The notes under the pieces: generated by a model
Seen by the model: only the letters and a program-made list of their open reading frames with translations
The model's database searches: none
What the model was told of the DNA's origin: nothing
Shown: piece after piece, positions 5,615 through 43,573 of the stretch
Numbering within the stretch: the first letter of the stretch is position 1
Layout: the number at the start of each line of letters is the position of its first letter
Made by a program: the position numbers and the translations under genes
NCBI GenBank assembly: GCA_019429305.1
Contig: JAHYIR010000002.1
Location: 1 to 43,573 of the forward strand
Direction of reading: 5' to 3'
Source of the DNA: Candidatus Cloacimonadota bacterium
GTDB lineage: Bacteria > Cloacimonadota > Cloacimonadia > Cloacimonadales > JAJBBL01
Length of the DNA: 43,573 nucleotides

Positions 5615-6814
5615 CTATTTTCTTTCATATAGAGTTGCGATGCCCATCCCACCACCAATACAGAGAGAGGCGAGCCCTTTGTTAACATCCCTTTTCTTCA
5701 TCTCGTGTAAGAGAGTTACAACAATGCGTGCTCCACTAGCTCCTATAGGATGACCTAAAGCAATTGCACCACCATTAACATTTACTATTTCTTGATTTAA
5801 ACTGCCTATATTCTCATGTTCCAGACCTTTAAGAACTGCTAATGATTGACCGGCAAAAGCTTCATTCAATTCAGCTAATTCTATATCCGATAAACTCCAA
5901 ATATTATTTGTTAACACTTTTTTGATTGCCGGTACTGGTCCTATGCCCATTATGCTTGGATTTACTCCAGCAGAAGCATAATCGATATAATATGCCAGAG
6001 GTGTAAGATTGAGTTCTCTGGCTTTTTCTTCACTCATCATTAACAGAATTGCAGCTCCATCATTAATACCTGAAGAGTTCGCAGCAGTCACTTTACCGTC
6101 TGGTTTAAAAGCAGGTTTTAGTTTAGCAACGCTATCGATCGTAGCACCCTTACGGGGATATTCATCTTCAGACACTATAACAGGTTCTCCCCTCCTTTGA
6201 GGAATAGATATCGGTACGATCTCTTCTGTGAATCTCCCTTCTTGCAAAGCTTTCTCTGCTCTATTTTGACTTGTGACAGCAAATTCATCCATCGCTTCCC
6301 TGGTTAGACTATATTTTTCAACTAAGTTTTCGGCAGTTATACCCATATGATATTTATTGAAAATATCTGTTAAACCGTCGTGGATCATAAGATCAACCGC
6401 TTTACGATCTCCCATTTTAGCCCCCCAACGCAAATCGGGCAGAATATAAGGTATCTGACTCATATTCTCTACTCCACCGGCTACTACAATGTTAGCTCTT
6501 CCACTCTCAATCATCAAGGCAGCTAAAGAGATTGATTTCATTCCGGAACCACAGACCTTGTTAACTACAAAACTCGGGATATCTACCGGTAAACCGGCAT
6601 TAATAGCTATTTGGCGAGCCACATTCTGTCCTAAACCGGCACCAATAACATTACCTATTATTACTTCATCTATCTCAGATGGTTTAACTCCTGTTTCCTG
6701 TATAATGCTCTTCAAAACATGAGTTCCTAACTCTACTGCAGAGATATCTTTAAAAACTCCACCAAAACTCCCTATGGGACTTCTGCGAGCAGAGACAATA
6801 ACAACTTTCTGCAT
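5615..6814 (-). CDS. atoB: Acetyl-CoA C-acetyltransferase (thiolase)
   Basis: 399 residues, a normal degradative/biosynthetic thiolase. The catalytic triad is visible: nucleophile Cys88 in NKVCGSGMKS, His355 in GHPIGASGAR and Cys385 in CIGGGMG. The NEAFA motif is also present. In this operon it would split acetoacetyl-CoA (made by Kat, or by CoA transfer to the acetoacetate released by Kce) into two acetyl-CoA. It is the first gene of the operon; its stop lies 20 bases before the kat ATG. GGGAGG sits 5 bases before the ATG. A thiolase used for other beta-ketoacyl-CoAs cannot be excluded. Confidence 0.92.
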   Translation of the reverse strand: MQKVVIVSARRSPIGSFGGVFKDISAVELGTHVLKSIIQETGVKPSEIDEVIIGNVIGAGLGQNVARQIAINAGLPVDIPSFVVNKVCGSGMKSISLAALMIESGRANIVVAGGVENMSQIPYILPDLRWGAKMGDRKAVDLMIHDGLTDIFNKYHMGITAENLVEKYSLTREAMDEFAVTSQNRAEKALQEGRFTEEIVPISIPQRRGEPVIVSEDEYPRKGATIDSVAKLKPAFKPDGKVTAANSSGINDGAAILLMMSEEKARELNLTPLAYYIDYASAGVNPSIMGIGPVPAIKKVLTNNIWSLSDIELAELNEAFAGQSLAVLKGLEHENIGSLNQEIVNVNGGAIALGHPIGASGARIVVTLLHEMKKRDVNKGLASLCIGGGMGIATLYERK

Positions 6815-12397: not shown

Positions 12398-13018
12398 TCA
12401 TTCTTCAGTATTTGTATCAGCTTCTTCTTTGAGTGATCTTGTGAAGAAATTAATAAAACCGAATATAATTCCTCCCAAAATCATCCATGAAGCATTGATG
12501 TTAAAATAACCGATTCCTATAAAAACAATTAAGCTGATTACCATATTGATGATTAACCTTCGTTTATAAACTGTCTTGGCTAAATTTATGGTAGTTGATA
12601 ATATTAAAGCTGTAGATGCAATAATGATACCGGACAGGAATTTTTGCACCCACTCAATGTCTCTGATGTTAAGGAAAAAAATCATGATAAAAAGAATTGC
12701 TAAAAATGCCGGTAATACCAACCCTAATGCAGAAATAAAACCACCTATAACTCCTACTTTTCGATATCCAGCATTAAAGGCAGCATTAACGGCAATTGCA
12801 CCCGGTATTGCTTGTGATACCGTAAGAATATCAACTAACTCCTCATTATTAAACCATTTTTTATTGATAACTAACTCCCGATAAATAAAAGGGATCATAG
12901 CATATCCACCACCAAAAGTAATACAACCAACCTTTACGAAGATAATGAAGAGTTCAAGACAAAGCTCAATTTTTGAAGAGTCTGGCTTTTTAAAAGTTCT
13001 AGATTTTTTCTCTTTCAC
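12398..13018 (-). CDS. Half-size chromate (CHR) family transporter, subunit 1
   Basis: 206 residues, about six membrane segments, with a longer charged N-terminus (about 20 residues) and an acidic C-terminus. CHR signatures: ITFGGGYAMIPFIYREL and SQAIPGAIAVNAAFNAGYR, aligning well with the downstream partner. The likely start is a GTG at 13018 that lies inside the end of tsaB (about 20-base overlap), so translation may depend on tsaB. The A-rich overlap (AAAAAAGTGAAAGAG) has no strong ribosome site, so expression by coupling is plausible. Function as for the partner: an anion exporter of unknown natural substrate. Confidence 0.83.
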   Translation of the reverse strand: MKEKKSRTFKKPDSSKIELCLELFIIFVKVGCITFGGGYAMIPFIYRELVINKKWFNNEELVDILTVSQAIPGAIAVNAAFNAGYRKVGVIGGFISALGLVLPAFLAILFIMIFFLNIRDIEWVQKFLSGIIIASTALILSTTINLAKTVYKRRLIINMVISLIVFIGIGYFNINASWMILGGIIFGFINFFTRSLKEEADTNTEE

Positions 13019-13688
13019 TTTTTTTTAGCTCTGCTTGTGATTTTCTCAAATAATATGGCTCTAAGTCAGCAATGTTTTTGAAATCATAATTAGGGATTTT
13101 TTGTTCTTGCACAACTATGCTGATCAATGCTGAAGCAATCGGAAAGTTTTGATGAAGAAGACCGGTAGTTAAAGTATTCTTCATTGAACTGATCAGTTCC
13201 TGGTATCGATAAATTCCATCTCCTATTATCAGTGTCTTCTCCTTTATAGTACTGAGAAATTCTTCCGGTTTAGCACTTTTAGGAGCGATAAGCTCCTTCA
13301 TATCACTGTCATATAATGCTGCATAGACTTCATCCATCCGGGCATCGATAAAAGGCAGAATATTTATCTGACACCCATGAGCATTATAAGCAAGTACCTT
13401 AAGGGTATTAACCGGGTATAGAGGCACTTTCTTGGCTAAACATATTCCTTTTGCAGTTGCCAATCCTATCCTAACACCGGTAAATGATCCTGGTCCATTG
13501 GAGAGGGCAATCAAATCTATCTCATCAATACTCATTTCACTCTGCTTCAAACCGTAATCTATCTGCTGCATTAATCTTTCCGAATGAGTAACTCGGATAT
13601 CAAGATAACTAATATATTCTATTCTTCCTTCTCTGCTTAAAGCAACACTACCCCAGCTTGAAGTAGTATCAAGAGCTAAAATATTCAA
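12999..13688 (-). CDS. tsaB: tRNA threonylcarbamoyladenosine biosynthesis protein TsaB
   Basis: 229 residues from the TTG at 13688. The frame is open 57 bases further up, but this TTG has GGAG 9 bases before it and gives the family N-terminus MNILALDTTSSWGSVAL. TsaB is the ASKHA-fold, catalytically inactive partner of TsaD in the complex (TsaB/D/E with TsaC) that makes t6A37 in ANN-decoding tRNAs. Visible hallmarks are HSERLM around residue 35-40, NGPGSFTGVRIGLATAKGI and IDARMDEVYAALY. Its length is typical of the family. It overlaps the following CHR gene by about 20 bases, an unusual pairing with no obvious functional link. Confidence 0.9.
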   Translation of the reverse strand: MNILALDTTSSWGSVALSREGRIEYISYLDIRVTHSERLMQQIDYGLKQSEMSIDEIDLIALSNGPGSFTGVRIGLATAKGICLAKKVPLYPVNTLKVLAYNAHGCQINILPFIDARMDEVYAALYDSDMKELIAPKSAKPEEFLSTIKEKTLIIGDGIYRYQELISSMKNTLTTGLLHQNFPIASALISIVVQEQKIPNYDFKNIADLEPYYLRKSQAELKKSEREKI

Positions 13689-13999
13689 TTTGCTGAACTC
13701 CTTTTTTTTATTTATTTTTTCGCCTCCTCTCTTAGCGTCAAGCAAAGAATAATTGAACAGTCTTATAACACTTAATTCTAATCTTATGATACCATTAGGG
13801 AAGACCGTAGTCGGCTTTAGCTGATTACGGTCCTCCCTATTGGTAACAAAGAGAAATCTCTGAAGTGTTTACTTAATCAAATTAGGTCTGATTTCAATAA
13901 AGCAAGAGAAGGTGAGATAGCTGAGAATAACAAGTTGACATTTTAATCTCAGTACAAATTTTTATCAACAAGGGAAAAAATGAGCAATCAGGACTTTAT
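13689..13999. other. Divergent intergenic region (tsaB / acyltransferase)
   Basis: 311 bases with no gene. It holds the first copy of a long palindromic repeat (13791-13861) and a possible promoter for the downstream acyltransferase (TTGACA at 13935-13940 with a weak AT-rich -10 about 17-19 bases on). The tsaB ribosome site lies at its left edge. Confidence 0.6.
13791..13861 (+). repeat. Dispersed palindromic repeat, copy 1
   Basis: A nearly perfect inverted repeat: the left arm 13792-13815 pairs with 13820-13843 (about 24 bp with two mismatches and two G-T pairs, 4-base loop). It is followed by GGTAAC and a second short palindrome (AGAGAAATCTCT, 13850-13861). A second copy lies at 42998-43072; the left arms align without gaps at 17 of 20 positions (TAGGGAAGACCGTAGTCGGC against TAGGGAACCCAGTAGTCGGC), and the right arm, the GGTAA and the second hairpin also match. 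No T-run follows the big stem, so it is not a simple terminator. It is intergenic and upstream of both neighbours. Confidence 0.8.
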
Positions 14000-14890
14000 A
14001 TGCGGGAAAAGAGAATTAAGAGTATAATAGAATATCTGTTATTCATCATTATTCTTCAACTTTTCAAACTGTTGCCATATAAAGCAAGCCAAATGCTTAT
14101 TGTTTGGATATTTCTCTTTTCTGGATTGATAGTCGGTATTAGGAAGAGAGTAGTTCAAGAGCAGTTACAAATATCATTTCCTGAAAAAGAAGAAACTGAA
14201 ATAAAAGTGCTAACCCGCCAAATCTACAAAAATCTGGCTTTCACAAGTCTGGAAATGTTTGCCAAACAAAAACTTGATAACATTGAAGTTGAAGGTTGGG
14301 ATAACATCCTGAATGCGTTGAAACTCAAACGAGGTCTGATCATTGTAACGGGACATATCGGTAATTGGGAATTAGCCGGTAGATATATTGCCCATCAGAA
14401 GTTGACGATCAATGTAGTCATTAAACGTTTACGAAATCGTTATTTCAATGATTATGTAAATCGCACTCGGGAAAGAGATGGCATTAAGATAATTTATAAG
14501 ACAAAGACGATGAGAACTGTCTTAACTGCTCTTAAAAACAATGAAATTGTGGTGCTATTGATAGATCAGGATGCCGGCAAGGAAGGTGTGATCCTTCCCT
14601 TCTTGAATCGTGAAGCTTCGGTCTTTACAGGTTTTGCCCGTCTGGCAGAAAGATATGACACCCCCATGATAACAGGAATTGCTCTAAGAGATAGCGACGA
14701 TAAGAACCGCTTTGTTTTCGAACAGCATCTTCTTCCATCAGAGTTTAATCAAGAAGAGGACAAAATAATGAAGATAACAGCATATTTTCATGCCAGATTA
14801 GAAGACTATATCATGAAACATCCTGAACAATGGTTCTGGGTACATCGTCGTTGGAAAGGGGCTAAAAAAGCTAAAAAACTTTATCAATAG
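14000..14890 (+). CDS. LpxL/HtrB-family lipid A (lysophospholipid) acyltransferase
   Basis: 296 residues. An N-terminal membrane anchor (about 10-45) is followed by the acyltransferase domain. It has the HX4E catalytic motif in TGHIGNWELAGRY (about residues 117-129), the following VIKRLRNRYFNDYVNRTRER segment, LIDQDAGKEGVILPFL, and the C-terminal HPEQWFWVHRRWK typical of LpxL/LpxM. The enzyme adds a secondary acyl chain to lipid A or a related lipid on the inner membrane. With KdsB elsewhere in the window, this supports LPS production. AGGA lies about 6 bases before the ATG. It ends 14 bases from the convergent ATPase gene. Whether it acts as LpxL or LpxM cannot be decided. Confidence 0.9.
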   Translation: MREKRIKSIIEYLLFIIILQLFKLLPYKASQMLIVWIFLFSGLIVGIRKRVVQEQLQISFPEKEETEIKVLTRQIYKNLAFTSLEMFAKQKLDNIEVEGWDNILNALKLKRGLIIVTGHIGNWELAGRYIAHQKLTINVVIKRLRNRYFNDYVNRTRERDGIKIIYKTKTMRTVLTALKNNEIVVLLIDQDAGKEGVILPFLNREASVFTGFARLAERYDTPMITGIALRDSDDKNRFVFEQHLLPSEFNQEEDKIMKITAYFHARLEDYIMKHPEQWFWVHRRWKGAKKAKKLYQ

Positions 14891-41823: not shown

Positions 41824-42807
41824 ATGAAGAGATTATTCAGCGGTGTTAAGCCCACAGGAGATCTGCACTTAGGAAACTATCTGGGTGCTATAAGACAATG
41901 GGTTAAACTACAAGATCAGTATCAGGCAGTGTATGGGATTGTTGATTATCATGCAATGACTGCAAAATACGAACCTCAGAATTTACAGGAAAATGTCTTT
42001 AAATGCGCCTGTAATTATCTCGCTTGTGGTTTAGACCCCAATAAATCGATATTAATGATCCAGTCCCATGTCAAATATCATGCTGAGCTTACCTGGATGT
42101 TGAACTGCTTGACTCCTGTATCTTGGCTGGAACGGGTACCCACCTATAAAGATAAGTGTCTGCAACAGGCAGATAATATCAACGTCGGACTTCTTGATTA
42201 TCCTGCTCTGATGACCGCTGATATAATCATCTATAAAGCTGAAGTAGTACCGGTAGGCGATGATCAAGTTCCCCATCTGGAGCTGGCTCGCGAAATAGTC
42301 AGACGCTTTAACTCAACCTTTGGACATATATTCCCCGAACCGCAAGCTATTGTCGGCAAGAGAATCAAAGGGCTCGACGGCAACGATAAAATGGGCAAGT
42401 CACTCGACAACTGTATCTATCTCTATGAAACAAAAGATCAGATCTGGGCTAAGATATCAAAAGCAATGACCGATCCGGCAAGGATCAAAAAGACTGACCC
42501 GGGAAATCCTGAAGTCTGCAATATTTTTACTATGCATAAGATTCTCTCTACAGAATTAGTCCAACAGGATGTTATTGAAGGTTGCACCAAAGCTACCATC
42601 GGTTGTCTGGAATGTAAAAGATGGCTTACAGATGCTGTTGAACAAGAGATTGCACCGATCAGAGAAAAGTACCTTTATTATATGAGCAATCCTCATGCTA
42701 TAGCTGAGATCTACATTCACGGTAATGAGAAGGCAAATAAACTCGCTTTGGAAACAATGACTGAGGTTTATGAAAAGATCGGTTTTGAATATGAGTTCTT
42801 AAAATAA
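41824..42807 (+). CDS. trpS: Tryptophan-tRNA ligase
   Basis: 327 residues, class Ic synthetase of normal length. HIGH-type motif in PTGDLHLGNYLGAIRQW (residues 10-26) and KMSKS-type motif GNDKMGKSLDNC (about 192-203), reading KMGKS. Other family segments: YHAMTAKY, NVGLLDYPALMTADI, VPVGDDQVPHLELAREI. AGGAGAA, overlapping the rimO stop, lies 5 bases before the ATG. Third gene of the operon and followed by a good terminator. Confidence 0.96.
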   Translation: MKRLFSGVKPTGDLHLGNYLGAIRQWVKLQDQYQAVYGIVDYHAMTAKYEPQNLQENVFKCACNYLACGLDPNKSILMIQSHVKYHAELTWMLNCLTPVSWLERVPTYKDKCLQQADNINVGLLDYPALMTADIIIYKAEVVPVGDDQVPHLELAREIVRRFNSTFGHIFPEPQAIVGKRIKGLDGNDKMGKSLDNCIYLYETKDQIWAKISKAMTDPARIKKTDPGNPEVCNIFTMHKILSTELVQQDVIEGCTKATIGCLECKRWLTDAVEQEIAPIREKYLYYMSNPHAIAEIYIHGNEKANKLALETMTEVYEKIGFEYEFLK

Positions 42808-42901: not shown

Positions 42902-42997
42902 TATGGTTCTCTTGTTTGCCATAATTACAACTATATACTAATCAATGAATTAGATAATTATCAAGAGTTTTTTTCTTCTAGCGACAATCATTGATTT

Positions 42998-43072
42998 ACT
43001 AATAGGGAACCCAGTAGTCGGCCCCCATCCGACTACAGTCCTTCCTAAGGGTAAAAGAGGGATATCTCTTTT
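42998..43072 (+). repeat. Dispersed palindromic repeat, copy 2
   Basis: Same element as at 13791-13861, same orientation. The inner stem AGTAGTCGG region (43014-43021) pairs with 43029-43036, and the outer TAGGGA (43003-43008) with TTCCTA (43042-43047); an internal loop lies between. The loop is CCCCCAT. The element is followed by GGTAA and a second hairpin, AAAAGAG (43053-43059) with CTCTTTT (43066-43072). Both hairpins are kept although the arms differ in several bases. Confidence 0.78.
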
Positions 43073-43331: not shown

Positions 43332-43573
43332 ATGAAGTTTAATCATATCGAAAGAGTACTAATCATTATTGCTATCATTTTATTGATGAGTAGTACTTTC
43401 ACTGATTTATTCTCTCAAGCAGAAGATATAAGAGTACGTAAAGTAGAATTTATCGGAAATGATCATTTATCTTCTGGTCATCTTCGTTCTCTAATGGAAG
43501 TACGCTCGAAGACTTTCTTAGAAAATTTTATGATTTGGAAGAAAGCTCCTCACTACGAAGCGGGGTTGTTAGA
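43332..43573 (+). CDS. N-terminus of a POTRA-domain outer-membrane protein (BamA/TamA/Omp85 family), truncated by the window end
   Basis: About 80 residues visible and still open at the window edge. A signal peptide (about 1-31, hydrophobic core VLIIIAIILLMSS) is followed by IRVRKVEFIGNDHLSSGHLRSLME, the first strand and helix of a POTRA domain (VxxIxFxGNxxxSxxxL). Omp85 proteins assemble or secrete outer-membrane proteins. Whether this is BamA itself or a paralogue cannot be told from the first domain. Weak ribosome site. Confidence 0.7.
   Translation, partial: MKFNHIERVLIIIAIILLMSSTFTDLFSQAEDIRVRKVEFIGNDHLSSGHLRSLMEVRSKTFLENFMIWKKAPHYEAGLL

Follow-up and report, generated by a model that had tools for sequence, protein, structure and literature searches.

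Evenly spaced intergenic palindromes and a linked orphan gene family in one clade of Cloacimonadota: a possible two-part system

Dispersed repeats of bacteria are expected to cluster or to scatter at random. Among the described systems with which the palindromes reported here can be compared, the REP/REPIN-RAYT systems ('REPtrons', with the Y1 transposase TnpA_REP) resemble them in having tens of palindrome copies dispersed between genes, some of which adjoin a partner gene, a palindrome-plus-gene unit, paired changes of the arms and persistence across a clade. REP sequences are defined by a GTAG or CGTC tag and by a stem of 5–13 bp (PMC3733652), and clusters are frequent for GTAG REPs and rare for CGTC REPs. 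With target-immune transposons (Tn3, Tn7, Mu) and their miniature derivatives, the palindromes have in common the inverted-repeat structure and the mutual avoidance of copies over about 16–20 kb; with the matS/MatP, Noc and SlmA sites, the occurrence of tens of spread, symmetric, intergenic copies with conserved core positions and a spacing of tens of kb; and with the DNA uptake sequences of Haemophilus and Neisseria, whose inverted pairs can form hairpins, the even dispersal. These uptake sequences are about 10 bp long, invariant and far denser, with one per 1–2 kb. The hairpin family matches no known family of repeats and no known type of chromosome-organising site, and the open-access literature searched contained no description of even spacing for such repeats or of palindromes in Cloacimonadota.

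The window, i.e., the whole 43,573-nucleotide stretch of contig JAHYIR010000002.1 (Candidatus Cloacimonadota bacterium, GCA_019429305.1) that was analysed, contains two copies of the palindrome, located among the following features.

13790–13845, no strand: copy 1 of the palindromic element (left arm 13790–13814, loop 13815–13820, right arm 13821–13845), in the divergent gap between 12999–13745 (−) and 14000–14890 (+)
13850–13861, + strand: short second palindrome AGAGAAATCTCT beside copy 1, overlapping the weak outer A-rich motif; no conserved family feature
42997–43053, same strand as copy 1: copy 2 (left arm 42997–43021, 7-nt loop 43022–43028, right arm 43029–43053), in the intergenic gap between 41824–42807 (+) and the gene at 43332 (+)
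43053–43072, + strand: short second palindrome AAAAGAGGGATATCTCTTTT beside copy 2; no conserved family feature
12999–13745, − strand: gene of a TsaD-family (PF00814) protein, whose 5' side is separated from copy 1 by 44 bp; context only
14000–14890, + strand: gene of the lipid A acyltransferase family (PF03279), neighbour of copy 1; context only
41824–42807, + strand: class I W/Y tRNA synthetase (PF00579) gene, neighbour of copy 2; context only

Copy 1, with the 6-nt loop CTTTAG and 21 Watson–Crick pairs among 25 stem positions, is the strongest local fold within the window (RNA folding energy −44.2 kcal/mol, z = −8.1, with none of 200 shuffled sequences folding equally well). An earlier reading made from the sequence only had noted a near-perfect stem here and a second copy 29 kb away, in the same orientation and in another intergenic gap, and the analysis bears out both observations. 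The double-hairpin plan proposed in that reading fared less well: a second palindrome does stand beside both window copies, but it is not a feature of the family, whose stems are instead flanked on both sides by a weak, symmetric, mostly A-rich motif, approximately GGTAnAnnAnAGATAA.

A BLAST search of the genome to which the window belongs (G000; 2,389,458 bases in 52 contigs, 99.9% complete) found 18 matches, and the covariance model R1, built from 16 copies, found 72 matching places, both window copies being members of this family. The sequence-only reading had supposed a dispersed family of intergenic palindromes, which is what was found; neither of the outcomes it named as fatal, a lack of further copies in the genome or a chance match of the arms to a tRNA or IS end, came about. 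None of the 70 copies with both neighbours callable by a simple gene caller lies inside a gene; 21 are located in divergent, 15 in convergent and 34 in tandem gaps, a placement with no strand or operon bias and no link to the direction of transcription. Scanning 84,980 genomes for an exact pattern gave the Candidatus Cloacimonadota MAG CSSed10_348R3 as the sole named match outside, and a pattern scan of IMG/VR gave two matches, neither of which scored with the covariance model.

The family consensus reads TACCnTTAGGGA, seven variable paired bases, AGTCGG, a loop of 6–7 nucleotides, CCGACT, seven bases and TCCCTAAnGGTA, with a 25-bp stem in the R1 and R2 alignments and an element length of 56–58 nt, or about 80 bp with the symmetric outer motif. 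The outer motif looks like a symmetric recognition sequence, because its pairing within a copy is no better than between copies. In the arms, pairing is kept while bases change: among 25 sequences from four genomes, compensatory changes were found at 19 of the 25 pairs, with 138 double-changed cells versus 41 in shuffles and a covariation score of 0.617 versus 0.192. The inner triplet beside AGTCGG is ACG, TAT or CGT in most copies of G000 and is identical on both arms in 70 of the 72, while farther out one arm can depart from the other; in chimeric copies, the outer arms are unlike and the inner 9 bp almost always match, suggesting that copies of one class exchange sequence through the core, or that one arm is corrected from the other as the DNA is replicated. 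Since quasi-palindromes are known to mutate by such correction, the covariation alone is no proof of selection for structure. Beside the freely changing positions, some arm positions are invariant in 144 of 144 or 142 of 144 arms of G000. Every G000 copy is full length; the most alike pair agrees at 47 of 50 arm positions (median 33), so that the pairwise arm comparison revealed no young copies, and a cmsearch at E ≤ 5 of 1.01 Mb, which took in the 6 kb on either side of almost every copy, revealed no fragments, partial or degenerate copies.

The most unusual property of the family is its even spacing. The 40 within-contig intervals of G000 have a mean of 29.1 kb, a coefficient of variation of 0.36 and a minimum of 16.0 kb, while in 20,000 runs of random placement the minimum had a median of 0.5 kb and did not once exceed 6.6 kb. 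Confinement to long intergenic gaps was rejected as the cause, since when random sites were drawn only from intergenic gaps of 129 bp or longer on the two complete contigs, P was still ~1e-4. Of the distributions fitted to the intervals, the shifted exponential was the best (log-likelihood −142.8, followed by gamma, −145.7, normal, −150.2, and exponential, −174.8), which indicates exclusion, i.e., a hard lower limit, plus random placement above it. The copies are thus overdispersed, and an exclusion zone of about 16 kb with random placement fits better than a fixed period. The lower limit is similar within and between sequence classes (16.0 kb for the same class, 17.6 kb for different classes), neighbouring copies share a class no more often than expected (0.40 versus 0.39) and interval length is independent of copy identity; deletion between similar copies and local duplication were rejected as causes, given the equal limit across classes and the lack of dependence on identity. 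A search artefact was considered as well, since only 150 candidates had been scored, and was rejected, since an independent pattern search gives the same places; full cmsearch of the two complete contigs, or of 1.01 Mb, found no extra copy. Even spacing is not a general property of repeats in this genome, as another repeat family of G000 is clustered.

The rigorous test of spacing refers to G000. The assemblies of the three other carriers, G001, G006 and G014, are fragmented, with each hairpin on its own contig, and contigs often end at hairpins, which indicates that assemblies break there and yields no evidence for spacing. Contigs ending a few hundred bases or less from a hairpin were seen in G001 (C8, C41, C65, C83, C85, C105, C121 and C158) and in G014 (C14, C42, C43, C46 and C74). 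In G000, a dispersed intergenic repeat of another kind (TTGTCATGTCGAGCGAAGTCGAGACATCTC..., up to 155 bp) is clustered in long gaps and sometimes stands beside hairpins (C4:108571–113742, C2:195467–203216 and L137 near 6420–6575).

In the phylum, model R1 was positive in 4 of 125 genomes. The architecture (56–58 nt, AGTCGG core, paired and freely changing arms) is present in all four genomes examined of two families and in none of the 121 others. With the broader model R2, applied to relatives, the counts are about 28 copies in G001 (same family as G000), and 16 and 15 in G006 and G014, the only representatives of the second family among the genomes examined; eight other relatives yielded no copies with R2. 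The two families are about equally close to G000 in protein identity (medians 51–54%, versus 47% for a third family), and the distribution is compatible with inheritance within a clade. Between genera, positions are weakly conserved (10 of 46 adjacent genes versus 11 of 135 distant ones, P = 0.03), partly driven by one orphan gene family, to which three of the ten conserved adjacent genes belong in G001 and two in G006. The single-contig Cloacimonadota genome G010 has a different perfect palindrome family, TTCCCATATCGCGATATGGGAA, at 13 places (L195–L207; e.g., C1 160757, 203240 and 334359), which was set aside as unrelated to the hairpin.

Comparison of adjacent genes identified this orphan protein, of about 200 aa, as the recurrent neighbour of the hairpin across genera; the suggestion of the sequence-only reading to look for a partner gene was thus well founded, though the gene is not a RAYT. 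Searches of Pfam, NCBIfam and PHROGs found nothing matching the protein, PDB sequences gave matches at chance level only, and a protein scan of IMG/VR revealed no relative. All seven homologues found first have a hairpin some 20–280 bp upstream of the start, in a sequence set enriched for hairpin surroundings; the unbiased test of linkage is a phylum-wide search for the gene, which found strong members only in G000 (2), G001 (6) and G006 (10, some with stops). A hairpin stands beside the gene in 2 of 2 cases in G000, 5 of 6 in G001 and 2 clear plus 2 weak cases of 10 in G006, and the gene lies just downstream of a hairpin at 9–11 of the 18 loci. Weak partial relatives of the protein were seen in three genomes of another family (G038:C236, G079:C242 and G084:C203; L271–L273), with no hairpins in the surrounding DNA examined.

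At 28 and 25 bp, the two gene-linked hairpins of G000 rank with the most perfect palindromes in that genome. In G001, three gene copies are 83–88% alike with a fourth, from about 14–23 nt outside the hairpin through hairpin, leader and gene; the hairpin-gene units are 82–91% alike overall, and one pair has more upstream sequence in common. The hairpin plus the gene were thus duplicated as a unit in this genome. The multi-copy state of the gene in G006, with stop-containing copies, is as would be expected for a selfish gene.

The best explanation, offered tentatively, is a two-part system of one Cloacimonadota clade, similar in logic to REPIN-RAYT and acting with long-range exclusion in cis. 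Its parts would be the near-perfect palindrome of 56–58 bp and the orphan protein (about 200 aa), whose gene closely follows some copies and which most likely recognises the palindrome in DNA, either as an extruded hairpin or as a symmetric double strand. The hairpin plus the gene would be the self-spreading unit, and solitary hairpins would be non-autonomous copies, as REPINs are to RAYTs. A resident copy may exclude others within about 16 kb in cis, by an effect like target immunity or by bound protein blocking nearby copies, and such exclusion would produce the even spacing at about 29 kb. We infer three things: binding or movement of the hairpin by the protein, an origin of the exclusion in the system itself, and upkeep of the arms' complementarity by pairing-dependent correction or by selection. 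A self-spreading pair with REPIN-RAYT-like logic and a different protein is suggested by the linkage, the duplication as a unit, the multiple gene copies and the pseudogenes, while maintenance of each copy is suggested by the lack of fragments, by core positions that stay invariant in an old family and by the even spacing. Against this explanation stand the lack of target-site duplications, young copies or fragments in G000, the hairpins of G014, in which no orphan gene was found despite 15 hairpins (assembly 82% complete), the 6–8 of 10 gene copies of G006 with no clear hairpin, and the lack of a recognisable catalytic family in the orphan protein.

Membership among REP/REPIN-RAYT elements proper, which the sequence-only reading had proposed together with BIMEs and a nearby RAYT, was rejected. 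The Y1/RAYT transposase domain PF01797 is absent in G000 (99.9% complete), G001 and G006, i.e., three of the four carriers; it is present in 13 of 21 relatives, including G014, where a strong copy has no hairpin nearby. GTAG at the foot of the palindrome occurs in 4 of 72 copies and CGTC in 1 of 72, so the copies do not carry the REP tag; unlike REPs, with stems of 5–13 bp, the hairpin has a single stem of 25 bp, and there are no dimers or clusters, no two G000 copies lying within 16 kb of each other. Of the REP properties, only the dispersed intergenic occurrence applies, and the partner of the hairpin is not a Y1 transposase. A degenerate Y1_Tnp match with a stop (G014:C109:29626–29820) is located 84 bp from a hairpin (29904), and a 287-bp flank at this hairpin recurs beside another one (L156).

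Ranked second, and not exclusive with the two-part system if the latter has been domesticated, is the possible but somewhat unlikely explanation that the copies are chromosome-organising sites: host palindromes, perhaps cruciforms, bound by the putative orphan-protein partner about every 29 kb and anchoring loops, segregation or supercoil domains, with the orphan protein autoregulating through the hairpin upstream of its own gene and a role comparable to that of matS, Noc and SlmA sites. As in matS- and Noc-type sites, a conserved symmetric sequence is combined with a non-random chromosomal distribution, and the even spacing, the intergenic position of all 70 classifiable copies with no link to transcription direction and the presence in all examined genomes of two related families agree with such a role; full-length copies with invariant positions in an old, diverged family suggest selection on each copy. 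However, the intervals show a hard lower limit with a random tail and no preferred period, positions are mostly not conserved between genera, the copy number varies (72, 28, 16 and 15), and the partner gene multiplies, decays and was not found in G014. Unlike matS/MatP, Noc and SlmA sites, the hairpins are far longer, have variable arms with true base-pair covariation, extend over the whole assembled genome and not one macrodomain, and are linked to multi-copy orphan genes. The orphan protein is only a candidate for the cognate DNA-binding protein of the hairpin.

Less probable, and in our view doubtful, is an origin in which the copies are left over from a now extinct MITE or IS, target-immune in the manner of Mu, Tn7 and Tn3 and unrelated to the orphan gene, and in which template-switch correction during replication alone kept the palindromes perfect. 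Exclusion-type spacing is expected from target immunity, and the chimeric copies fit recombination and correction with no selection. In G014 (L147–L157), IS-like ends (GTAGTGTCTCAAATGTTGGTGTAAATT) and at least three other repeat units start 10–25 nt outside the stems, at a nearly constant distance, indicating insertion or rearrangement hot spots there. Yet the carriers have no transposase in common: RAYT, integrase and rve-type partners were each considered and rejected on this ground, the rve-type domain PF00665 being absent in G001 and G006, G000 having one IS3-like gene, and its only two tyrosine recombinases being read as XerC and XerD. There is no target-site duplication in G000, with no enrichment at any offset for k = 2–9, nor are there isolated half-sites, fragments or a decay gradient, and no parent element with the same ends was seen in this genome. 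The lack of target-site duplications, of fragments, of such a parent and of an rve-type partner common to the carriers sets the hairpins apart from target-immune transposons; with no young copies either, recent movement was not seen in G000. The MITE remnant of the sequence-only reading is therefore not upheld in its ordinary form, but the hairpin-plus-gene unit duplicated in G001 leaves mobility of another type likely. Clear flank similarity to the left and to the right was seen for a single pair of G000 hairpins, C4:119714 and C26:16609 (L077, L137), in which one flank matches at 74% over about 165 bp and the other over about 30 bp.

A role as DNA-transfer or uptake tags, in which molecular drive favours one hairpin per transferred fragment and copies therefore avoid each other, is very improbable: the self-avoiding spacing, equal across sequence classes, and the common recognition core (AGTCGG) and outer ends would suit it, but no competence, GTA or transfer genes are linked, a tag does not need long covarying arms, and the hairpin, unlike the Haemophilus and Neisseria sequences, is about 80 bp long, variable and about 20 times rarer. 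Least probable of all is a transcribed element, be it a bidirectional terminator, an mRNA stabiliser or the structured RNA of the sequence-only reading, for despite the very stable fold and the leader-like position 20–280 bp upstream of orphan gene starts, the mix of gap types with no orientation bias, the lack of an Rfam match for the hairpin and sense-strand counts in which G-U (39) does not clearly exceed A-C (33) make RNA-level and terminator roles unlikely, and such an element gives no reason for the even spacing.

A sharp lower limit of about 16 kb that all sequence classes obey equally implies that a mechanism acts in cis over long range, either the immunity of a mobile system or a function at the scale of the chromosome. 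In the second case, the palindromes may belong to a chromosome-measuring system, a possibility we consider rather unlikely, in which cruciform-forming copies would be placed by a novel protein family at least about 16 kb apart, kept copy by copy through evolution in two Cloacimonadota families, and serve to organise or segregate the chromosome. The hairpin and the linked orphan family form a concrete, testable pair of a site and a candidate protein in a poorly studied phylum, and this pair may be a non-Y1 counterpart to REPIN-RAYT.
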